Of a stretch of 40,824 bases of DNA, positions 1-40,822 are shown in pieces. Under the pieces are notes generated by a model that did no database searches, was not told the DNA's origin, and saw nothing but the letters and a program-made list of their open reading frames with translations. The translations under genes and the position numbers were made by a program. Source of the DNA: Thiogranum sp. (GTDB taxonomy: Bacteria > Pseudomonadota > Gammaproteobacteria > DSM-19610); assembly GCA_024636585.1 (NCBI GenBank), contig JAGXGS010000026.1:1-40824 (forward strand), read 5' to 3'. Position 1 is the first letter of the stretch, and the number at the start of each line of letters is the position of its first letter.

Positions 1-300
1 GCCTTCTTCGCTGGAGCCTTCTTCGCTGGAGCCTTCTTCGCTGGAGCCTTCTTCGCTGGAGCCTTCTTCGCTGGAGCCTTCTTCGCTGGTGCCTTCTTCG
101 CTGGAGCCTTCTTCGCTGGTGCCTTCTTCGCTGGAGCCTTCTTCGCTGGAGCCTTCTTCGCTGGAGCCTTCTTCGCTGGAGCCTTCTTCGCTGGAGCCTT
201 CTTCGCTGGTGCCTTTTTGGCCGGAGCCTTCTTGGCCGGAGCCTTCTTGGCCGGTGCCTTCTTCGCTGGTGCCTTCTTCGCTGGTGCTTTTTTAGCCGGT
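1..300. repeat. 15-bp tandem repeat array encoding PAKKA units
   Basis: About 20 contiguous copies of a 15-bp unit (plus strand GCCTTCTTCGCTGGA) fill positions 1-300 and run off the window edge. They are in frame with adk on the minus strand; each unit encodes Ala-Lys-Lys-Ala-Pro in rotation. Differences between units are mostly synonymous (GCT/GCA for Ala, GCG/GCC for Ala, AAG/AAA for Lys), which argues for selection on the peptide. Units nearest the kinase domain (about 210-300) are the most diverged and those toward the C-terminus nearly identical, as expected for recent expansion at the distal end. Confidence 0.95.
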
Positions 301-1076
301 GTTTTTTTGGCAGTGCCAGCCGATCCGGCAACTGCCTTTTCAGCGGCTAATGCGCCCGGCCCCTGCTCATTCAGGGCTGCCTGCGTCACTTCAGGCTCAG
401 CAATCTGCGGCTCGCGCGGTGGCGCGCTTTGCACTTCATTCACCGCCTTCAGGACCGCAGTGAAAACATCCTGGATATCGCCAATGCCCTGCACGGTGCG
501 CAGCCGACTCTGCTCGCGGTAGCGCTCGATCACCGGCGCCGTCTGGAGCTCGAAAACCCGCAGGCGATTGCCAATGGTTTCTTCATTGTCATCGGAACGG
601 CGCTTGAGACGCCCGCCGCATTCATCGCAGCGGTCATCCATTTTCGGGGGCGCGGAGAAAATGTTGTAGCTGGCGCCGCACGACGTGCAAGTGCGACGCC
701 CCAGCAGACGCTGCAGAATGACATCGATGTCCACGTCGATCAGCAGCGCCACATCGATCGGCTTGCGCAGCTCGGCGAGTAACCCATCGAGCTGCTCGGC
801 CTGCGTCGTATTGCGTGGGAAACCATCAAGAATGAAGCCTTTGCCTGTGTCGGGGCGGGTAAGCCGATCGCGGATTACCCCCAGCACGATGTCATCGGAA
901 ACCAGTTGCCCGGCGTCCATGACAGCCTTGGCGGCGCGACCCAGAGGCGTTCCCTCGGCGACTGCCTGGCGCAACAGATCGCCGGTAGAGATCTCAGGAA
1001 TATCGTAATGCTCGGCGAGACGCTGTCCCTGCGTGCCTTTCCCACTACCGGGAGCTCCCAAAAGAATTATCCTCAT
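1..1076 (-). CDS. adk: Adenylate kinase with lysine/alanine/proline-rich C-terminal repeat tail (3' end outside window)
   Basis: Adenylate kinase interconverts ATP + AMP and 2 ADP in the cytoplasm. The P-loop GAPGSGKGT lies at residues 8-15, followed by the AMP-site motif STGDLLR (about 30-36) and DGFPRN (about 84-89). The lid carries four cysteines (C130, C133, C150, C153), a structural zinc site that E. coli Adk lacks. The catalytic core ends near residue 215, the normal family length. It continues through an acidic/Ala-rich linker (about 216-255) into at least 20 PAKKA pentapeptides, still open at the window edge (358 codons visible). The tail resembles histone-H1-like or AlgP-like basic tails; its role is unknown. 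The ATG at 1076 is set by the conserved MRIILLG start. A candidate promoter lies at 1153-1181. Confidence 0.95.
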
Positions 1077-6485: not shown

Positions 6486-6923
6486 CTAACCCGGGGTATT
6501 ATGTTCGACCCAGCGCGCGCCATCTTCGCGCTGTTCTTTCTTCCACAGCGGGGCTTTCGATTTCAGCTCCTCCATCAGGAAACGGCTGGCTTCGAAAGCG
6601 GCCTTGCGATGCGCCGACCACACCGCAACCAGTACAATCGGTTCTCCCGGATGCAGTTCTCCGACCCGATGCACAATCAGACTGTCGAGCAGATTCCAGC
6701 GCTCGGTTGCCGCGACAGAAATTTTTTCCAGCCAGGCTTCCGTCATGCCCGGGTAGTGTTCGAGAAACAGGCTTTGTACGTTTTGATCTTCATTGAAATC
6801 CCGCATCGTGCCGACGAACACCGCGGTCGCCCCGTAGGCGCCTTCCGGTGGCGCACCGGCGCGCTGGTAATCCGACAGCAGCGCCCAGGGATCGAAACCG
6901 GCATCGAGAATTCTGACGGTCAT
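6486..6923 (-). CDS. moaE: Molybdopterin synthase catalytic subunit
   Basis: MoaE, with MoaD, inserts the dithiolene sulfurs into precursor Z (cPMP) to make molybdopterin. The 145-residue product has GATAVFVGTMRDFN (about 31-44), LEHYPGM, the AHRKAAFEA helix, and the active-site lysine region KSKAPLWKKE (about 121-130). The start codon overlaps the moaD stop (ATGA), with GGAGG inside the moaD 3' end as its ribosome binding site, so translation is coupled. It is convergent with the phosphoesterase gene, with 14 bases between. Confidence 0.94.
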   Translation of the reverse strand: MTVRILDAGFDPWALLSDYQRAGAPPEGAYGATAVFVGTMRDFNEDQNVQSLFLEHYPGMTEAWLEKISVAATERWNLLDSLIVHRVGELHPGEPIVLVAVWSAHRKAAFEASRFLMEELKSKAPLWKKEQREDGARWVEHNTPG

Positions 6924-27443: not shown

Positions 27444-30359
27444 TCAAACTTCCATCACACGTCGCCATACTGCGACGACTCTGTCGCGCACGTCGCTCAG
27501 CGTATCATCGCTGACCAGGGCGGAACGTTCCGCCAGCGTCAGCCGGTGATTGAGTGCGCGATACTCTTTATAAGCACTGATCAGCGTCTGCGCATCCGTT
27601 ATGTTCAGCCGGCCGACCTCTGCAAGCGTCTCCAGCAGTCGTATGGTGTCGGTGAAGCGCAAAAGATCGGGATGCGTTCTACACCAGCGCAGGACCAGAT
27701 ATTGGACCATAAATTCGATATCAACGATACCACCCGGATCCTGCTTGATGTGGAAACCCTCGCGCCCGCGGGAGCCGAGTTCACTGCGCATGCGTTCGCG
27801 CATCTGCAGCACTTCCAGGCGCAGCTGGCCGGCCTTGCGGGGCAGGCTCAGCACGCTGCCGCGAACTTTTTCAAACGCCGCTGTCAGGCTCCGGTCGCCG
27901 GCCACCACCCGCGCCCGTACCAGTGCCTGGTGTTCCCAGGTCCAGGCCGCTTCGCGTTGGTATTCGTTGAATGCTTCGAGTGAACTCACCAGCAGACCGG
28001 CGTTGCCGGATGGTCGCAAACGCATGTCCACCTCGTACAGCACCCCTGCCGCAGTCATGGTCTCCAGCATGTGAATCATGCGCTGACCCAGACGCGTGAG
28101 AAATATCGAATTGTCGACCGATTTGCGGCCCGAGGTTTTCTGATCGTCGCCCTCACTGTCATGCAGAAATACCAGATCCAGATCCGATCCGTAGCCGAGT
28201 TCTATACCACCGAACTTGCCATATGCCACCACGATAAATGCCACCTGGCGCTGTTTGCCGGCGACCTTGCAGCGTGGCACCCCGTAGCGTCCGCTCATTT
28301 CCTTCCAGACCAGCGACAACACCTTCTGTACCACCACCTCGGCGATGACCGTCAGGCGATCGCTGACCACCATGAGGGGAATCGCATCCGCCACATCCGC
28401 CGCCGCCACGCGCAATATCATCGCGTGGCGGAACTGGCGCAAGCCGTCCATTTGCTGTTCCAGATCGCTGGCGTCAATGCCCTTGAGCCGCTGTTCGAGC
28501 TCGGCCTCCAGCTCCTCGCGCTGCAGCGGCGCATACAGGGTGCGCGGGTCCAGCAACTGATCCAGCAGCAGCGGGAAGCGTGCAATCTGATCGGCAATCC
28601 AGGCACTGGCGGCGCAAAGTTTCACCAGTTGATTCAGCACCTGCGGCGACTCCTGCAGCAGCGCCAGGTAAGTCGTGCGTCCGGCGATCTGTTCGAGAAT
28701 ACTGACCAGACGTCCGAGCACCTGCGCCGGATCCGCCTGCTCACCGACCACGCCCAGCAGCATTGGAATCAGCGCATCGAAGCGCGCGCGGCCCTGTTCG
28801 CCGAGATAGCGCGGCGCATTCCCGGTGCGCAACTGTTCAATCAGGCGCCAGGCCTCGGCGGGATCGTCGTAGCCAGCCTGCTTCAGCGTGTGTTCAATGT
28901 CTTCGCGGGATCCCGATTGGCCGATCCAGACAGTCTTGAGCGCAACGAGCGACGGCGCCGGCCCGGCATCCGCGATCGCAAACACCTGCGCGAAATGCTC
29001 TTCGACATGCCGCTGATGGATCTGCAATGCGGCACAGAATGCATCCCAGTCGGAGAACTGCATTGCCAGCGCCAGGCGCGCTTGCTCCAGCTCCGCTTCC
29101 GGCAGATGGTGGATCTGCTGATCGTGCATGGCCTGCAGGCGATTTTCTGCACGGCGCAGAAACCGGTAGGCTTCGATCAGTTCACGACTGGCCGCAGCTG
29201 GCAGCAGGCCCAGTTCGGCCAGCGCCTCGAGCACCACCACGGCGCCACGCTGGCGCAGGCGCGGTTCCCGGCCGCCTCTGACCAGCTGGAATGCCTGGGC
29301 AATGAATTCGATTTCACGAATGCCGCCCGGCCCCAGCTTCAGGTTGCTCTTGCGGCCCTTGCGCGCGACCTCGCGGCCAATTTGCTGTTTCAGATCGCGC
29401 AGCGAATCGAAAGCGCGATAATCGAGATAACGGCGGAACACGAACGGGCGCAGCAAGTCATCGAGTTCCTGCCGCCGATCCGCTTCTCCAGTCACCGGGC
29501 GCGCCTTGATCATGGCATAACGCTCCCAGTCCCGGCCCTGCGACTGATAGTACTCTTCGAGCGCTTCAAAACTGCAGGCCAGCGTGCCCGCCTCGCCATA
29601 CGGTCGCAGCCGCATGTCGACGCGAAACACGAAGCCGTCCTGATCGGGATGCGACAGCGCCTGAATCAGCGACTGTCCGAGGCGCGAAAAATATTCTTCG
29701 GCGCTCAGTTCGCCACGCCGCTGCGAATCCGCAGCGTCGGGATATGCAAAGATCAGATCAATATCTGAAGAAAAATTCAGCTCCCGCGCGCCGAGCTTGC
29801 CCATCGCCAGTACGATCAGCGACAGCGGCCGTCCGGCCGCGTCACGGGGAACCGGCGTTTCGGCCGCCTGCCAGTCGCCAAGCTTTGCCAGCGCCGACTG
29901 GATGCAGGTGTCCGCCAGATCAGAAAGATCTGTCAGCGTCTCGTCCAGATCCGACCAGCCGGCAATGTCGCGCCAGGCGATGCGCAGCATCTCCCGGCGC
30001 CGCAACCGCCGCAGGCTGCGATACAGCGACACTTCATCGGTGCAGGTCGCCACCTCCCGGCGCACCCGCTCTGCCAGCGCCCCGGCCCAGGAATCGGCCA
30101 GCAGATCGCCGCTGTCGAGCAACAGACGTGGCAGCTGCGGCTCGCGAATGCAGCTGTCGGCAATGAAATCACTTGCCGCAAATACCCGACACATTAGTTG
30201 GCGAAAATGTACATCTGCCGGAACCGCCTGTTGATCCATGCCGGCGGCGGCCAGATAACGCTGCCAACGACCCGAGGTCATTTCCTGCAGGCTTGCCGGA
30301 AGGCTTTTCCAGGGTTCGCTGGTGTCTATCGCAGTTTTTGTTTTTATCGCACGCGCCAT
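27444..30359 (-). CDS. glnE: Bifunctional glutamine synthetase adenylyltransferase/adenylyl-removing enzyme
   Basis: GlnE adds AMP to glutamine synthetase when nitrogen is plentiful and removes it when scarce, under control of PII. The 971-residue length matches the two-domain family. The N-terminal adenylyl-removing nucleotidyltransferase carries GARELNFSSDIDLIFAYPD (about 200-218), and the C-terminal adenylyltransferase carries GGIELGYGSDLDLVFLHDS (about 720-738). Both Asp pairs are intact, so both activities are expected. The first gene of a long minus-strand run, with a 158-base divergent gap to the sigma-factor gene. Confidence 0.97.
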   Translation of the reverse strand: MARAIKTKTAIDTSEPWKSLPASLQEMTSGRWQRYLAAAGMDQQAVPADVHFRQLMCRVFAASDFIADSCIREPQLPRLLLDSGDLLADSWAGALAERVRREVATCTDEVSLYRSLRRLRRREMLRIAWRDIAGWSDLDETLTDLSDLADTCIQSALAKLGDWQAAETPVPRDAAGRPLSLIVLAMGKLGARELNFSSDIDLIFAYPDAADSQRRGELSAEEYFSRLGQSLIQALSHPDQDGFVFRVDMRLRPYGEAGTLACSFEALEEYYQSQGRDWERYAMIKARPVTGEADRRQELDDLLRPFVFRRYLDYRAFDSLRDLKQQIGREVARKGRKSNLKLGPGGIREIEFIAQAFQLVRGGREPRLRQRGAVVVLEALAELGLLPAAASRELIEAYRFLRRAENRLQAMHDQQIHHLPEAELEQARLALAMQFSDWDAFCAALQIHQRHVEEHFAQVFAIADAGPAPSLVALKTVWIGQSGSREDIEHTLKQAGYDDPAEAWRLIEQLRTGNAPRYLGEQGRARFDALIPMLLGVVGEQADPAQVLGRLVSILEQIAGRTTYLALLQESPQVLNQLVKLCAASAWIADQIARFPLLLDQLLDPRTLYAPLQREELEAELEQRLKGIDASDLEQQMDGLRQFRHAMILRVAAADVADAIPLMVVSDRLTVIAEVVVQKVLSLVWKEMSGRYGVPRCKVAGKQRQVAFIVVAYGKFGGIELGYGSDLDLVFLHDSEGDDQKTSGRKSVDNSIFLTRLGQRMIHMLETMTAAGVLYEVDMRLRPSGNAGLLVSSLEAFNEYQREAAWTWEHQALVRARVVAGDRSLTAAFEKVRGSVLSLPRKAGQLRLEVLQMRERMRSELGSRGREGFHIKQDPGGIVDIEFMVQYLVLRWCRTHPDLLRFTDTIRLLETLAEVGRLNITDAQTLISAYKEYRALNHRLTLAERSALVSDDTLSDVRDRVVAVWRRVMEV

Positions 30360-30466: not shown

Positions 30467-30493
30467 GGAATAATCGATGCTGGAGTCCGTCTA
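30467..30493 (+). promoter_or_regulatory. Candidate ECF-sigma (autoregulated) promoter
   Basis: GGAAT (30467-30471) and CGTCTA (30488-30493) are separated by 16 bases. This matches the GGAAC-type -35 and CGTC/TCTA -10 of many ECF sigma factors. It lies 25 bases before the sigma-factor ATG, putting transcription start near 30500. Autoregulation is the usual arrangement for an ECF sigma/anti-sigma pair. Confidence 0.55.
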
Positions 30494-30517
30494 TCTGCCA
30501 TAGGGAAGTTCAAGGGT

Positions 30518-31066
30518 ATGACCGTGATAAAGACCTTTTGCAAGAACCAGCAGTTCAAGCGCACGCTGGCAGAGTACCGCGAGAACCTCTACCGGATCGC
30601 TTATTCCTGGTGCCATAACCCGGCGCTGGCGGATGACCTGGTGCAGGAAACACTCGCCAAGGCGCTCAAAAACAGCAGTCAACTGCGTGACCTTGCAACC
30701 ATGAAAGCATGGTTGTACCGCATTCTCAGCAATTGCTGGCGGGACCACTTTCGGCGTAGCCGGGAGACGGTGGACATCGACGATATCGTGCTGGTTGACG
30801 GAGACACGCCGGATCTGCGCAATGACCGGCAGCAGATCATCCACCGGGTACGCAACGCCATTGCACGCTTACCCAACGGGCAGCGTCAGGTCATCACCCT
30901 GGTCGACCTGGAAGGCTGTTCATATATTGAAGTGGCACAAATCCTGGATGTGCCTATCGGAACTGTTATGAGCCGCCTGTCGCGCGCCAGGAAGGCGCTC
31001 AAGGAGCTACTGCTCCAGGCCGAGCTACCGCGCGACCGCAAGGTTCATCAATTAAGGTCAGTGTAA
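30518..31066 (+). CDS. ECF-type RNA polymerase sigma factor
   Basis: A 182-residue group-4 sigma factor with only regions 2 and 4. Region 2 spans about 18-85 (YRIAYSWCHNPALADDLVQE, then WLYRILSNCWRDHFRR, typical of -10 recognition). Region 4 is about 117-170 (LPNGQRQVITLVDLEGCSYI, GTVMSRLSRARKALK, the helix-turn-helix that reads the -35). A GTG at 30524 with AAGGG seven bases upstream is an alternative start. The following gene, two bases downstream, encodes its presumed transmembrane anti-sigma partner. The target regulon is unknown. Confidence 0.92.
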   Translation: MTVIKTFCKNQQFKRTLAEYRENLYRIAYSWCHNPALADDLVQETLAKALKNSSQLRDLATMKAWLYRILSNCWRDHFRRSRETVDIDDIVLVDGDTPDLRNDRQQIIHRVRNAIARLPNGQRQVITLVDLEGCSYIEVAQILDVPIGTVMSRLSRARKALKELLLQAELPRDRKVHQLRSV

Positions 31067-31067
31067 A

Positions 31068-31832
31068 ATGAGCAACAATGACATTTCCGATGAGCGTCTC
31101 AATGCGTTTATTGATGACGAGCTCGATGCGCTGGAAAAAAGCGAAGTATTCGAAGCGCTGGAAGCCGAACGCGAGCTCAGCCAGCAGGTGTGTGAACTGC
31201 GTCAGCTGAGCGAACTGGTGCGTCACGCCTACGATACGCCCCCGGCCATTGAACAATACCGTCCGCAGCACACAAAACGGATCAATCCCTGGGGCGCCGC
31301 TGCAGCTGCTTCACTGCTGCTCGGAATAGGCGCGACGCTGGGCTGGGTAGGACATCAGCCGCCAGAACCGGTTGACGTGCCACGGCTGAACGCCATGTAC
31401 TGGGATAAGGAGCACGCATTCCAGAACAGCGACCTCGCTGCCATCGCACAGAACCCGGACAGCAGAAAGATCATCGTGCACCTGAATACCTCGAGTGGCC
31501 CGAAATTCGAACAGGCGCTGGCTACCGCGGAACAACTTCTTGAGACGTATGCCGACAGCGACAAGGGTGCAGAAATAGAGGTGGTAGCAAATGCCAGCGC
31601 AGTGAAAATGCTGCGCGCCGGCTTTACACCGTACTCACAACGCGTCAGCGACCTGCAGGAACGCTACATCAATCTGACTTTCCTGGCGTGCAAGGATGCA
31701 ATGGATCATATTCGCGAACTGGAAAATGACCAGGGCGAAGTGCAGCTTCTGCCTGGTGTGGATGTTACGCCATCGGCGCTGGAACATATCCTGAACCGTC
31801 TCAGCGACGGCTGGATGTACATCAACGTCTAA
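31068..31832 (+). CDS. Transmembrane anti-sigma factor with extracytoplasmic DsrE-like domain
   Basis: A 254-residue protein. Residues 1-60 resemble the cytoplasmic sigma-binding region of membrane anti-sigma factors (ISDERLNAFIDDELDALEKS), without a His-x3-Cys-x2-Cys zinc motif. One membrane segment (about 75-95, WGAAAAASLLLGIGATLGWV) with basic residues just before it puts the rest outside the cytoplasm. Residues about 134-254 read like a DsrE-type sulfur-relay fold: KIIVHLNTSSGPKFEQALA, EIEVVANASAVKMLR, LTFLACKDAM with Cys208, QLLPGVDVTPSALEHI and GWMYINV. Cys208 is the only cysteine on that side. The start is two bases after the sigma stop. The architecture suggests a sulfur or redox sensor; that role is inference. 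Confidence 0.85.
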   Translation: MSNNDISDERLNAFIDDELDALEKSEVFEALEAERELSQQVCELRQLSELVRHAYDTPPAIEQYRPQHTKRINPWGAAAAASLLLGIGATLGWVGHQPPEPVDVPRLNAMYWDKEHAFQNSDLAAIAQNPDSRKIIVHLNTSSGPKFEQALATAEQLLETYADSDKGAEIEVVANASAVKMLRAGFTPYSQRVSDLQERYINLTFLACKDAMDHIRELENDQGEVQLLPGVDVTPSALEHILNRLSDGWMYINV

Positions 31833-31844
31833 AAGAGCAGCAAT

Positions 31845-31996
31845 CCTTGCCGTCATTGCGAGGCGCGAAGCGACGCGGCAATCTCTGACCGAATGAGTCT
31901 GAATCCTGAGATTGCCGCGCTACGCTCATAGAACCCCTGCGGGGTTCATCATGCGTACCTCACCCTTCGGGTCGAGGCATCGCAATGACAGGCAGG
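31845..31996 (-). repeat. Composite interspersed repeat, copy 2 (inverted relative to copy 1)
   Basis: Non-coding sequence between the convergent anti-sigma and groL genes. Read on the minus strand it has CCTGCCTGTCATTGCGA, then GACCCGAAGGGTGAGGTACG, the palindrome GAACCCCGCAGGGGTTC, GCGTAGCGCGGCAATCTC and finally GATTGCCGCG...CGCAATGACGGCAAGG. Order and spacing match 18951-19078. The two ends form an imperfect terminal inverted repeat (TGCCgTCATTGCGA / TGCCTGTCATTGCGA). The rest of 31833-32074 holds only the groL terminator. Confidence 0.8.
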
Positions 31997-32025
31997 AGTG
32001 GAGCGCTACGGTTGCAATGACAGAC

Positions 32026-32074: not shown

Positions 32075-34040
<1,966 letters not shown>

Positions 34041-37344: not shown

Positions 37345-38700
37345 CTACTTCAGGTGATATTTCTTGATCAGGTCGTACATGGTGGGACGGCTGACACCCA
37401 GTAGATCGGACGCCTGTGAAATCTTTCCACCGACGTGGCCCATGGCCCTGACGATGGCCTGACGTTCGGCCTGTTCGCGAATTTCCCGCAGATTGAAGGT
37501 CCGCGCGTCATCGACCCCGGCACCACCGAGCTCAAGATCGGAAGCGGAAATCTGTTTGTGCTCGGCCATGATCACCGAGCGCTTGACGCGGTTTTCAAGC
37601 TCACGCACATTGCCCGGCCAGGGATAGGTTTCGATGGCGGCCAGCGCATCCTTGCTGAAACGGTGCTGCTGCTTGCCCATTTGCTGACTGAATTTTTCCA
37701 GGAATACGCGCGCCAGCAGTAATGTATCGCCTTCGCGTTCGCGCAATGCCGGGATGCGAATGGTCAGTTCGCTGATCCGGTAATAAAGATCTTCACGGAA
37801 GGCTTTTTCGCGCGCCAGTTGCGGCAGATCCTTGTGGGTCGCGCAGATAACGCGCACGTCCACCGGGATTTCCTGGCGGCCACCGACGCGCTCGATCACC
37901 CGCTCCTGCAGGAAACGCAGCAGTTTGGCTTGCAGCGACAGCGGCATGTCGCCAACCTCGTCGAGGAACAGGGTACCGCCGTTGGCCATTTCGATCTTGC
38001 CAGGCGTCTGTTTGGCCGCACCGGTAAACGCGCCTTTTTCATAGCCGAACAGCTCGCTTTCCAGCAGGGCTTCGGGAATGGCTGCGCAGTTGATGGCGAC
38101 GAACCGCCCGTCGGCGCGCCCGCCGAGAGCGTGCACGGCACGCGCGATTAGTTCTTTACCGGTACCTGATTCACCCAGCACCAGAACCGTGGCGTCGGAC
38201 GGAGCCACTTTTTCCACCGTGCGGCACACCTTCAGCATTTCCGGGCTGGCGGTGATGATCCCTTCCAGCGGTGATTCACCGCCGGTGAAATGCAGGCGCT
38301 GATTCTCGCTTTCCAGCTCATGCAGACGATAGGCGCGGTTAACGATGAAACCGAGCATATCGACATCGATTGGTTTATAGAAGAAATCGTAGGCGCCGGA
38401 GCCAACGGCCTGAAGCGCATTCTGGCGATCGTTATTTCCGGTGACCACAATGATCTTGGTATTGGGAGCCCGCGAAAGGATTTCCTCGAGGGTCTGGAAG
38501 CCTTCCGCCGTGCCGTCCGCATCAGGCGGCAATCCCAGATCCAGAGTGACTACCGGCGGCCGATGTTTTTCCAGTTCAGCCAGCGCGGTGTCGCGTTCCC
38601 CCGCAATAATGACGCTGTAGCCTTCAAAGCACCATTTCAGCTGCGTCTGCAGCCCCGGGTCATCCTCAATAACCAGCAATTTCCTTGAATCGGTTGTCAT
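37345..38700 (-). CDS. prsR: PrsR-type sigma54-dependent response regulator (PEP-CTERM system)
   Basis: An NtrC-like activator of about 451 residues. The receiver (about 8-125) has LLVIEDDPGL and phospho-acceptor Asp in TLDLGLPPDADG. The AAA+ domain (about 145-380) has Walker A LGESGTGKEL, the sigma54 contact loop GAFTGA in ELFGYEKGAFTGA, and Walker B GGTLFLDEVGDM. The Fis-type helix-turn-helix (about 405-450) ends in LLGVSRPTMYDLIKKY. The GVSRPTMYDL end and the pairing with a PrsK-like kinase are typical of PEP-CTERM/exosortase genomes. ATG 38700 overlaps the prsK 3' end by 35 bases. It needs RpoN promoters, so exopolysaccharide or PEP-CTERM targets are expected elsewhere. Confidence 0.93.
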   Translation of the reverse strand: MTTDSRKLLVIEDDPGLQTQLKWCFEGYSVIIAGERDTALAELEKHRPPVVTLDLGLPPDADGTAEGFQTLEEILSRAPNTKIIVVTGNNDRQNALQAVGSGAYDFFYKPIDVDMLGFIVNRAYRLHELESENQRLHFTGGESPLEGIITASPEMLKVCRTVEKVAPSDATVLVLGESGTGKELIARAVHALGGRADGRFVAINCAAIPEALLESELFGYEKGAFTGAAKQTPGKIEMANGGTLFLDEVGDMPLSLQAKLLRFLQERVIERVGGRQEIPVDVRVICATHKDLPQLAREKAFREDLYYRISELTIRIPALREREGDTLLLARVFLEKFSQQMGKQQHRFSKDALAAIETYPWPGNVRELENRVKRSVIMAEHKQISASDLELGGAGVDDARTFNLREIREQAERQAIVRAMGHVGGKISQASDLLGVSRPTMYDLIKKYHLK

Positions 38701-40822
38701 CAACCTGTCCGTTTTCTGATTTGTCGGCCGACCTTACACTATTTTTTTCTTCTTCGCTAATGGGAATTCGCATCCGAAAAGTAGTCCCCTCGCTGACGCG
38801 GCTGATCACTTCCACCTCACCGGAAAGGCCGCGAATGAACTCACGCGTTTCGTAGGCGCCTATTCCCATTCCCGAATTGCCCTTGGTGCTGGCAAAGGGT
38901 TTGAAGAGACCATCGCGCAAAAACGCCTCTTCCATGCCCTCGCCATTATCCTGCACTTCAATCACCGCATAATCATGCTGTTTGAATAATCTGACGATGA
39001 CCAGTCCCTCGGCTGGAGTGGCGTCCTGAGCATTGCGGATGATATGACCGATGACGGCGCCGAACCGGTCACGGTCGGCGCGGATGTAAATACCGGCGGC
39101 CTGACAGTCCATCCGCGGCACCGGCGAACCCGCTGACATGGTTTTGACCGCCTCGGTAAGCGATTGACAGAGCTCGATTTTATTATTCTGCTGCTGGGAA
39201 GATTCACCGCCGCTGCGCAATTGCGCAAGCATCCGGTTCATTTTGGTCACGGAATTCTCGACAGTCTGGATCGCATCTTCCATAAACTGCGGATTATTCT
39301 TGTGTCGGGCCGCATTCGAAACCACCAGGGAAAGCTGCGCGATGAGGTTCTTGAGATCGTGCATGACATAGGCAGACAGGCGATTGCAGGCCTCGAACTG
39401 TTTGGCCTGGAACAGCGCCTGCGCCGCATCCAGCTGCGCCAGATGCGCGGCAGACTGGCGACCGACTATGCGCAACAGATCGTAGTCCTCATAGTTCATG
39501 GCATGCGTGACCTGCGGACGCATCAGCACCACGAATCCCGACAGGCGAAAATGGAACACCAGCGGCACGATCAGCCAGGCATTCTCGATCTCGCCGAACC
39601 ACGCCGGCAATTCAAGTTCCTGATAGCGTTGGGGCGCTGCAGCGAACTCATCGACATTCACAATCCATTCGGCGTCACGCAGATAGCGAATCAGCGGACT
39701 GTCCGCATCGAGCATATAGTCGCCGCCGGTGTGGGCCGGCATCTGCCAGTTGGCAGCGGGTTCATAGCGCCGCACCTCGCGGTTGAGCCACAGCATGCCA
39801 CCCGGGCAACCAAAGATATCCGCCATTGCCTTGATGGTCCGTTCCCGCAGCTGTTCATCCGGCTCCTGGGTGGTCAACGTATGGATGAAGCGCAACCACT
39901 CCTCGCGGTATTCAAATTTATAGTGAAAAAAGTGCTTGTTGATGAAGACCCGCAGACTGGCGCGCAACTGTGCTGAAAACAGCAGAATCATCAGCATCAA
40001 TACGGCACCGAACAGGAAGATGACCTGGGCCACAGTGCCCCAGGTGCCGCCGTACTCGCGAATGACGAAACCGCCCGCACCCATCGCCAGAAGATAGATG
40101 CCCGAACCAAGCAAAGCAGCGGTATGGAACACCACCCGTCGTGAAACGAAAATATCCAGCGACCACTGCGGATCACGCGCCGCTGCAATACCGATTACCG
40201 GCACCACAATGGCATTGATGAACCCACGCGCATTCCACAGGGAGGCGTCCACTCCGCGGAACAGCAAGGCATGGGAATACAGATAAAAGTCATAGGCGAA
40301 AATCGCCCCAAGCCCGATGCAGAGATACTTGACCGCCCGGCGCGATTCGGGACGGGCATTACGGATCAGCTGTTCAACCAGCACCAGCCCCGCGACCGCC
40401 ATCACCAGGTAACCAGCGAGCAACATGTCGATGCCGCCCGCGGACGGCAGTTGCTTGCCGGATGCGACCCGGTACAGGACCATCATGATCAGCAGCATGG
40501 AAAAACTGGCCAGCACACCAACTGTATTCCGGAAATAGCTGCGCGCCTGTTCCGGTTTGGAATAGGCCGCACTCAAAACCCGCACCACGAAAGCGAGCAG
40601 GGCCAGATTCCGCAGGGGTTCCAGCAGGTAGGAAGCAACCGGTGCGATATCATTGGCTGCGATATACGCGGTGATGGCCATCCAGAGCGCGCTGATCAAA
40701 GCCGCGAGCAGTAAAGCATTCTTGTGTGGACGGCCCCGCTGCCCGGTCATCAGAACCAGCGACAGAATCAGGAAAACTCCTGCGCCGGTTGCGTAGCTGA
40801 TCGCTCCGATGTTGACCATCAT
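38666..40822 (-). CDS. prsK: PrsK-type membrane histidine kinase (PEP-CTERM system)
   Basis: A 718-residue sensor kinase, partner of PrsR. The N-terminus (about 1-280) holds some eight hydrophobic segments (for example ATGAGVFLILSLVLM, MLLAGYLVMAVAGLVLVEQL) and no large periplasmic domain. A GAF-like region follows (about 320-470), then the phospho-acceptor His in AYVMHDLKNLIAQL (about 487). The ATPase part has IIRNAQDATP (N box), VQDNGEGM (G1) and STKGNSGMGIGAYETREF (G2). ATG 40822 or 40819 fits a PrsK-like start (MVNIGAISYATGAG), but only two bases remain beyond it, so a longer N-terminus cannot be excluded. Its stop lies inside prsR, so the two are translationally coupled. Confidence 0.92.
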   Translation of the reverse strand: MMVNIGAISYATGAGVFLILSLVLMTGQRGRPHKNALLLAALISALWMAITAYIAANDIAPVASYLLEPLRNLALLAFVVRVLSAAYSKPEQARSYFRNTVGVLASFSMLLIMMVLYRVASGKQLPSAGGIDMLLAGYLVMAVAGLVLVEQLIRNARPESRRAVKYLCIGLGAIFAYDFYLYSHALLFRGVDASLWNARGFINAIVVPVIGIAAARDPQWSLDIFVSRRVVFHTAALLGSGIYLLAMGAGGFVIREYGGTWGTVAQVIFLFGAVLMLMILLFSAQLRASLRVFINKHFFHYKFEYREEWLRFIHTLTTQEPDEQLRERTIKAMADIFGCPGGMLWLNREVRRYEPAANWQMPAHTGGDYMLDADSPLIRYLRDAEWIVNVDEFAAAPQRYQELELPAWFGEIENAWLIVPLVFHFRLSGFVVLMRPQVTHAMNYEDYDLLRIVGRQSAAHLAQLDAAQALFQAKQFEACNRLSAYVMHDLKNLIAQLSLVVSNAARHKNNPQFMEDAIQTVENSVTKMNRMLAQLRSGGESSQQQNNKIELCQSLTEAVKTMSAGSPVPRMDCQAAGIYIRADRDRFGAVIGHIIRNAQDATPAEGLVIVRLFKQHDYAVIEVQDNGEGMEEAFLRDGLFKPFASTKGNSGMGIGAYETREFIRGLSGEVEVISRVSEGTTFRMRIPISEEEKNSVRSADKSENGQVDDNRFKEIAGY

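Follow-up and report, generated by a model that had tools for sequence, protein, structure and literature searches.

Introduction

RpoE and RseA form a pair consisting of an ECF sigma factor and a class I anti-sigma. Zinc-binding redox anti-sigmas of the ZAS (RsrA) type carry an HxxxCxxC motif in their N-terminal domain. DsrEFH and TusBCD are cytoplasmic hetero-hexamers that operate a sulfur relay using a cysteine. At the level of transcription, excerpts of three reports describe how SoxR and sHdrR of Hyphomicrobium place sulfur-oxidation genes, sox among them, under the control of sulfane sulfur (PMC10451225, PMC12423496, PMC11582611). RpoE1 and RpoE4 of Sinorhizobium (ECF26) are ECF sigma factors with a neighbouring anti-sigma gene that control sulfite oxidation, and their signal is described, in the sections consulted, as generated inside cells (PMC3511301). 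The sensing of sulfur outside the cell by regulators is called poorly understood in one excerpt (PMC11582611), while another describes certain bacteria whose Sox system is truncated as needing little sophisticated transcriptional control (PMC10451225).

Here, we analyse a two-gene locus within a window of 40,824 nucleotides from Thiogranum sp. (contig JAGXGS010000026.1). We favour, with a probability of about 0.62, a model in which the locus encodes an ECF switch: a periplasmic DsrE domain detects sulfane sulfur via Cys208 and frees a sigma factor to transcribe sox genes.

Results

Architecture of the locus

The locus comprises the following features, each given with the evidence that defines it.

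27444–30359, minus strand: glnE, divergent neighbour and left border of the window-type locus (neighbour maps)
30467–30493, plus strand: ECF-type promoter GGAAT-N16-CGTCTA (GGAAT at 30467–30471, 16 nt, CGTCTA at 30488–30493)
30518–31066, plus strand: ECF sigma factor, 182 amino acids (ATG at 30518; Pfam and TIGR02937)
31068–31832, plus strand: transmembrane anti-sigma with extracytoplasmic DsrE domain, 254 amino acids (Pfam, model and fold match, alignments)
31068–31229, plus strand: predicted cytoplasmic sigma-binding helices, residues 1–54 (model helices 8–15, 21–33 and 35–54; operon position)
31287–31352, plus strand: predicted membrane helix, residues 74–95 (model helix; hydropathy)
31461–31829, plus strand: extracytoplasmic DsrE domain, residues 132–254 (Pfam, PDB sequence matches, Foldseek)
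31689–31691, plus strand: codon of Cys208, sole cysteine of the DsrE domain (invariant in the family)
32075–33709, minus strand: groEL, convergent neighbour and right border of the window-type locus (neighbour maps)

The sigma factor contains regions 2 and 4 (Sigma70_r2, 54.7 bits; Sigma70_r4_2, 65.9 bits; Pfam) and reaches 93.4 bits against TIGR02937, for which the cut-off is 42.9. A single nucleotide separates its gene from that of the anti-sigma. The operon promoter at 30467 scores 22.7 with the weight matrix described below; the remaining two matches above 13 in the window (7495 and 9496) lie inside genes. This promoter is kept at about the same position before sigma genes of the window type (class 1).

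A predicted model of the whole anti-sigma (mean pLDDT 85.9) was compared with known structures using Foldseek. The best match was 1l1s (MTH1491; E 6e-9, target TM 0.86), and further matches were ST0148, YchN (1jx7) and DsrEFH (2hy5; E 1.6e-3), with TusBCD also among the fold matches. Sequence searches of the PDB returned 2pd2 and 1l1s for the DsrE domain (E ~5e-6), and Pfam assigned residues 143–253 to the DsrE/DsrF-like family (PF02635) with 24.1 bits against a gathering cut-off of 22.7. Hydropathy reaches its maximum of 1.62 for 19-residue stretches from residues 76–77, indicating a single membrane span. Model and hydropathy together predict that the DsrE domain, which follows this helix, lies outside, unlike the cytoplasmic DsrEFH/TusBCD relay. 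The N-terminus matches zf-HC2 with 15.2 bits (cut-off 22.2), and that of a relative (L138) matches RseA_N with 19.6 bits (cut-off 24). Since the zf-HC2 match falls under its cut-off, the N-terminus is assigned as sigma-binding from its place in the operon, the predicted helices and the family. The HxxxCxxC zinc motif is absent from the anti-sigma, whose cytoplasmic part contains only Cys42.

A preliminary description of this DNA had proposed an ECF sigma factor followed by an anti-sigma fused to an extracytoplasmic DsrE-like domain. Pfam, the fold match and recurrence of the pair across a family bear this out, including the DsrE-like fold of the outer part (1l1s, TM 0.86) and, by prediction, the one membrane helix. 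The proposed autoregulation through GGAAT-N16-CGTCTA is likewise supported by conservation of the promoter before class-1 sigma genes and by the matrix matches. Two corrections apply. The "normal" sigma-binding N-terminus agrees with the three model helices and with operon position, but no domain in it scores above cut-off; and besides Cys208, its sole outer cysteine, the protein carries Cys42 in the cytoplasmic part. We regard the overall architecture, an ECF sigma factor with a transmembrane anti-sigma whose outer domain is DsrE, as close to certain.

Three other regions of the window drew our attention. The intergenic region between the anti-sigma gene and groEL (about 31835–32000) contains inverted copies of a attgcgaggcgcgaagcgacgcggcaatctc-like element that appears REP-like by eye. 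At the left end, 3–1076 (minus strand) encodes an adenylate kinase whose C-terminus extends into a long (AKKAP)n tail similar to the histone H1-like HC2 (Pfam HC2, 42.8 bits, cut-off 40); the underlying 15-bp repeat runs for 18.9 copies and is cut by the window end. At the right end, 37345–40822 (minus strand) encodes a histidine kinase with a GAF domain and a sigma-54 response regulator, which we take to resemble the PrsK/PrsR pair of PEP-CTERM systems.

A widespread family with four invariant residues

A search of genome contigs with the single query P0002 returned no match; an alignment-based query returned 48 loci. These came from Thiogranum, Thiohalobacter and other Gammaproteobacteria, from Betaproteobacteria, Rubrivivax and Burkholderiales, and from one Acidobacteria MAG. 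Within the window's family, 18 of 20 genomes had matches, its own included. Several of these genomes carry two or three copies of the fusion, and the window's own genome has two (the window and G000:C2). The preliminary description had suggested a profile search for anti-sigma/DsrE fusions, and the family proved large: in a sample of Gammaproteobacteria, 68 of 369 genomes had a fusion match (E ≤ 1e-30); 66 of these matches span nearly the whole protein, and those of G276 and G281 are partial. In a tree of 89 non-redundant fusions, the window falls in a 12-row clade (100/100) within a 17-row clade (100/98), 16 of whose 17 members adjoin glnE and/or groEL.

Among the 85 fusions for which 1 kb or more of upstream sequence was available, 84 are immediately preceded by a sigma gene; for the exception (L268), a sigma-labelled frame is present in its neighbour map. 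This recurrence places the fusion beyond chance. H138, N175, C208 and W249 are invariant in all 89 fusions, the window included, when segments shorter than 95 residues and duplicates are left out. Cys208, whose loss in orthologues would have counted against the preliminary description, is also the sole cysteine of the matched DsrE segment in 89 of 89 fusions; its conservation was likewise complete in 41 of 41 sequences of an earlier alignment. A lone invariant cysteine points to persulfide or thiol chemistry, or to transfer between proteins, rather than to an internal disulfide. Pfam alone was rejected as a test of family membership: none of eight other fusions scanned (L028, L114, L138, L121, L139, L123, L033 and L020) passes the DsrE cut-off, yet their key residues align.

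Two other loci deserve mention. In G017, L214:1129–1365 (reverse-complement numbering) encodes a 78-amino-acid anti-sigma frame that keeps the N-terminal part and is without the membrane and DsrE parts; the sigma gene beside it retains the family promoter. L103 lies on a contig binned as Desulfobacterales and carries a window-type locus (65% identity, adjoining glnE) that is either misbinned or transferred.

The residue counts bear on an explanation in which the DsrE domain is an inert relic, ordinary regulated proteolysis cuts the anti-sigma, and the link to sox reflects a common habitat. One anti-sigma of the family, the 78-amino-acid form, does without the domain, as a relic would allow. 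Against this, the four residues are invariant in 89 of 89 fusions across a deep divergence that includes Acidobacteria and Betaproteobacteria, which argues that the domain is not evolving as a relic, and the promoter sequence of the sigma factor precedes sox genes, as shown below. We consider a relic highly improbable.

Apparently secreted DsrE proteins and porins beside the fusions

Neighbours were counted around 77 fusions with more than 2.5 kb of upstream sequence, duplicates removed. Stand-alone DsrE genes occur within 4.5 kb of 42 of the 77 and porin genes within 6 kb of 40, compared with 20 for glnE and 13 for groEL (both within 4.5 kb). The neighbouring dsrE is usually divergent and its product has, by eye, a signal-peptide-like start, so that it is apparently secreted; a porin gene then follows (Porin_4/Porin_O_P in the one scanned). 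A model of one such stand-alone protein has the DsrE fold (1l1s, TM 0.90). These neighbours limit the earlier statement on the cytoplasm as the normal place of action of DsrE proteins, because ones with signal-peptide-like starts are frequent beside this family. The neighbour maps of window-type loci show no adjacent dsrE; in the window's own genome, dsrE adjoins the other fusion copy (L028). A third group of fusion paralogues (L040, L041 and L046) adjoins hydrolases of the metallo-beta-lactamase fold, one of which is related to SoxH but below cut-off (155.5 versus 280 bits).

Such neighbours raise the possibility that the DsrE domain, instead of sensing sulfur, offers a docking surface for secreted DsrE or SoxYZ and responds to how much of the partner is present or how much sulfur it carries. 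The signal would then be contact between proteins, served by the cysteine. Consistent with docking are the frequent DsrE and porin neighbours, the same single cysteine in each of the stand-alone DsrE segments collected from these loci (51 of 51), and the hetero-oligomers among known DsrE-fold structures (DsrEFH and TusBCD among the fold matches). Window-type loci nevertheless have no adjacent dsrE, even though one lies beside L028 in the same genome, and the stand-alone proteins mostly differ at positions 138 (H in 13 of 51) and 175 (N in 1 of 51). The latter difference indicates that the fusion domain is not a mere copy of the stand-alone protein. We judge docking unlikely, though it is the rival to which we give the most weight.

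The sigma promoter precedes sox genes

We trained a two-block weight matrix (PWM) on 52 sigma upstream regions, leaving out L067, whose anti-sigma has no DsrE part, and L051:7954, a mixed frame. Scores exceed 14 in 51 of the 52 sigma genes, which are the training data themselves. On the dsrE side, outside training, scores exceed 12 in 35 of 40 divergent dsrE genes versus 3.4% of 642 control frames, these being long unlabelled frames of the same loci, gene status unchecked, with duplicates removed. Non-divergent dsrE genes score above 14 in 3 of 12 cases, that of the window's own genome included.

The exact class-1 pattern, which has 14 spacer bases, occurs at 30 sites in 13 genomes versus 3 for the reversed pattern. 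By our reading, ten are the sigma factor's own promoter, eight precede soxB and two precede DsbD-like genes; the rest are one at a contig end after soxA (G012) and nine others, some inside frames. Sites before soxX have 15 spacer bases and are hence missed by this pattern. The eight soxB sites lie 45–51 nt before the gene as identified by eye, an identification confirmed for two at ~740 bits (cut-off 550) and further supported by homology search. Of the 10 class-1 genomes in which the start of soxB could be read, 8 have an exact site.

The preliminary description had also proposed a motif search for the regulon. Within the window's family, a site (exact or PWM above 14) precedes soxB in 12 of 16 genomes with a readable soxB start; sites above 14 are missing in G001, G014, G015 and G016, and class 1 is present in two of these four, G001 and G015. 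The motif before soxX, scoring 18.2 to 24.1, is present in every one of the 16 family genomes, the window's own among them, whose soxX upstream region could be read (the region is unreadable in G005, G007, G008 and G018). Homology to soxB led to fourteen of these soxX clusters; for those of G000 and G012 the motif itself was the route, so their sites are not independent finds. GGAATAAA and CGTC are identical and equally spaced in all 16 sites, and the sequence of the spacer varies. The genome that contains the window has soxXYZA on G000:C56, and a site at 2163 (minus strand, score 22.2) stands ~190 nt before soxX; a contig end truncates the soxB of this genome. G004, a complete genome, has two strong sites in its sox cluster, one before soxX and one before soxB.

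Control of sox solely by window-type fusions is not upheld in its strict form. Five genomes of the family (G002, G010, G014, G016 and G017) keep the soxX motif, and no window-type fusion was found in them. The sigma factors found in G010, G002 and G014 have promoters reading CATC or TATC, not CGTC, and no sigma factor with a CGTC promoter was found in these three genomes. Orphan or class-2 sigma factors with CGTC promoters occur in G008, G015 (L223) and G016 (L210). In L210 and L223, no anti-sigma gene was recognised beside the sigma paralogue, and the gene that comes next encodes, by eye, a Crp-like regulator.

Outside the window's family, we examined 3 kb upstream of soxB in 40 of 62 genomes with both fusion and soxB and in 39 of 85 soxB genomes without the fusion, taken in list order; G174, G284 and G241 were left out, as were the non-fusion genomes G214, G316, G317, G342 and G357. 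Scores above 14 occur in 13 of 40 fusion genomes versus 6 of 39 others (p 0.11), a weak contrast, and within 250 nt of soxB in 6 of 40 versus 1 of 39. With a cut-off of 18, which was chosen post hoc, the counts are 10 of 40 versus 1 of 39; the reverse strand of the same 3-kb regions has no score above 18. In G140, G254 and G350, all from the window's 17-row clade, the site lies ~2.6 kb before soxB, which would be the soxX position if the cluster reads soxXYZAB. On balance, we think it quite probable that sox belongs to the regulon of this sigma family.

Two further observations came from the motif searches. In L408 (G015:C25), two high-scoring sites stand back to back at 6703 (minus) and 6734 (plus) between unknown genes, which are candidate targets. 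A GGAATATATYGAGGC..CAGCGTCT string recurs at L403:4038 (G000:C39) and in many genomes of the family, near sox in some; its matches resemble a conserved coding stretch, are probably coding, and were not counted as promoters.

The fusion co-occurs with sox genes

soxB was called with TIGR04486 (E ≤ 1e-60) in 151 of the 369 sampled Gammaproteobacteria genomes. It is present in 66 of 68 fusion genomes versus 85 of 301 others, with an odds ratio of 84 and a Fisher p of 7e-28 that ignores kinship; the fusion-match genomes in which it is absent at this threshold are G074 and G276. The association may come in part from habitat and kinship, and sox does not require the fusion, since 85 of 301 genomes without a match have soxB. 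Direct linkage (soxB within 8 kb) was seen for 3 of 77 fusions. In G174 and G284, one strand carries in order the sigma gene, the anti-sigma gene, soxX, an open frame at the place expected for soxYZ, soxA and soxB; in G185, the fusion lies ~2 kb from soxB. A supposed soxB neighbour in G117 (L275:1–1362, minus strand; G117:C153) was withdrawn, the truncated frame scoring only 52.9 bits against SoxB; this frame, divergent from the fusion locus L275, is probably another metallophosphoesterase. A SoxA label in L114 (38.8 bits) was left unused.

These data also address whether the locus is a general switch for envelope thiol or oxidant stress, with sox just one output. The window-type locus adjoins groEL and dsbD is nearby, hinting at protein stress, and in G013 and G015 an exact class-1 motif stands ~220 nt before the DsbD-like gene (by eye). 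That site, however, is found by the exact pattern in 2 of 13 genomes, compared with a soxX site in all 16 readable ones, and it is soxB with which the fusions associate. Moreover, the one cysteine of the DsrE domain leaves no internal disulfide switch. We therefore regard a general stress switch as improbable, though less so than a relic.

Discussion

Architecture, fold, topology, residue conservation, shared promoters and the association with sox were computed, and on these we base a model for the switch. At rest, the membrane-anchored anti-sigma would hold the sigma factor. On arrival of thiosulfate or sulfane sulfur in the periplasm, Cys208 of the DsrE domain would be the point at which sulfur is taken up or reacts, either directly or from a secreted single-cysteine DsrE or SoxYZ. 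The domain would then change state and the hold on the sigma factor would weaken, directly or through proteolysis, leading to release. The freed sigma factor would transcribe its own operon together with the soxX operon and soxB from GGAATAAA-N-CGTC promoters, and paralogous copies would drive secreted DsrE and the porin. We infer the sulfur ligand, the persulfide chemistry, the periplasmic location, the release step and actual transcription from the computed features. Promoters before soxX and soxB and the secreted DsrE and porin neighbours favour sulfane sulfur from thiosulfate over general oxidants; that sulfur on Cys208 is the signal we hold slightly likelier than the contrary. The single conserved cysteine on an outer DsrE domain, combined with the signature before thiosulfate-oxidation genes, makes the protein a probable sensor of external sulfur of a new kind.

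It is possible, although we rate this at somewhat under even odds, that the fusions constitute a transmembrane sulfur-receptor family in which thiosulfate-derived sulfur, delivered by secreted DsrE or SoxYZ, persulfidates the DsrE domain and frees a sox-activating sigma factor, while duplicates with differing -10 elements serve separate sulfur tasks. If true, this would reveal a major overlooked sox regulator of Gammaproteobacteria that reaches Betaproteobacteria and Acidobacteria, the tasks of the duplicates being sox genes and DsrE-porin uptake. The locus is in any case a conserved, widespread and testable candidate for sensing from the periplasm; its promoter is defined and the genes of its predicted regulon can be named. 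It further points to a function for certain secreted and membrane-bound DsrE proteins, a group barely recognised by the family libraries scanned.

ECF/anti-sigma switches and DsrE proteins are each known; it is for their combination, the outside location and the tie to sox that we found no description. Excerpts of the matches listed in open-licence PMC papers contain neither a DsrE anti-sigma nor an ECF sigma factor controlling sox, in keeping with the earlier view that no system of this type had been described. The same holds for the consulted sections of PMC2147049, PMC7451513, PMC10512742 and PMC6504805, and in a word search the term DsrE was absent from the main text of two ECF papers (PMC7406223 and PMC8103513).

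Comparison with described systems sets the locus apart in several respects. SoxR and sHdrR are, in the excerpts consulted, ArsR-type repressors, SoxR having two conserved cysteines, whereas the window encodes a transmembrane anti-sigma with one outer cysteine; neither the sigma factor nor the anti-sigma matches an ArsR-type family (Pfam, E ≤ 1). RpoE1 and RpoE4 are described in the consulted sections as having an anti-sigma of the COG5662 type, and the targets given there for RpoE4 are sulfite oxidase genes, not sox (PMC3511301). Among DsrE proteins, those of the MTH1491/ST0148 type (1l1s, 2pd2) provide the best sequence and fold matches, and Cys208 aligns with their cysteine; they are stand-alone archaeal proteins, whereas in the window an anti-sigma carries this fold as its outer part. 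The DsrEFH/TusBCD relay shares the fold class at a weaker match (DsrEFH, E 1.6e-3), but the window's domain is predicted to be periplasmic and membrane-tethered. In its organization, the locus resembles pairs of ECF and class I anti-sigma such as RpoE-RseA: a two-gene operon, a membrane anti-sigma, and autoregulation from an ECF promoter whose -35 and -10 elements are conserved. It differs from them in its sensor, which is a DsrE domain.
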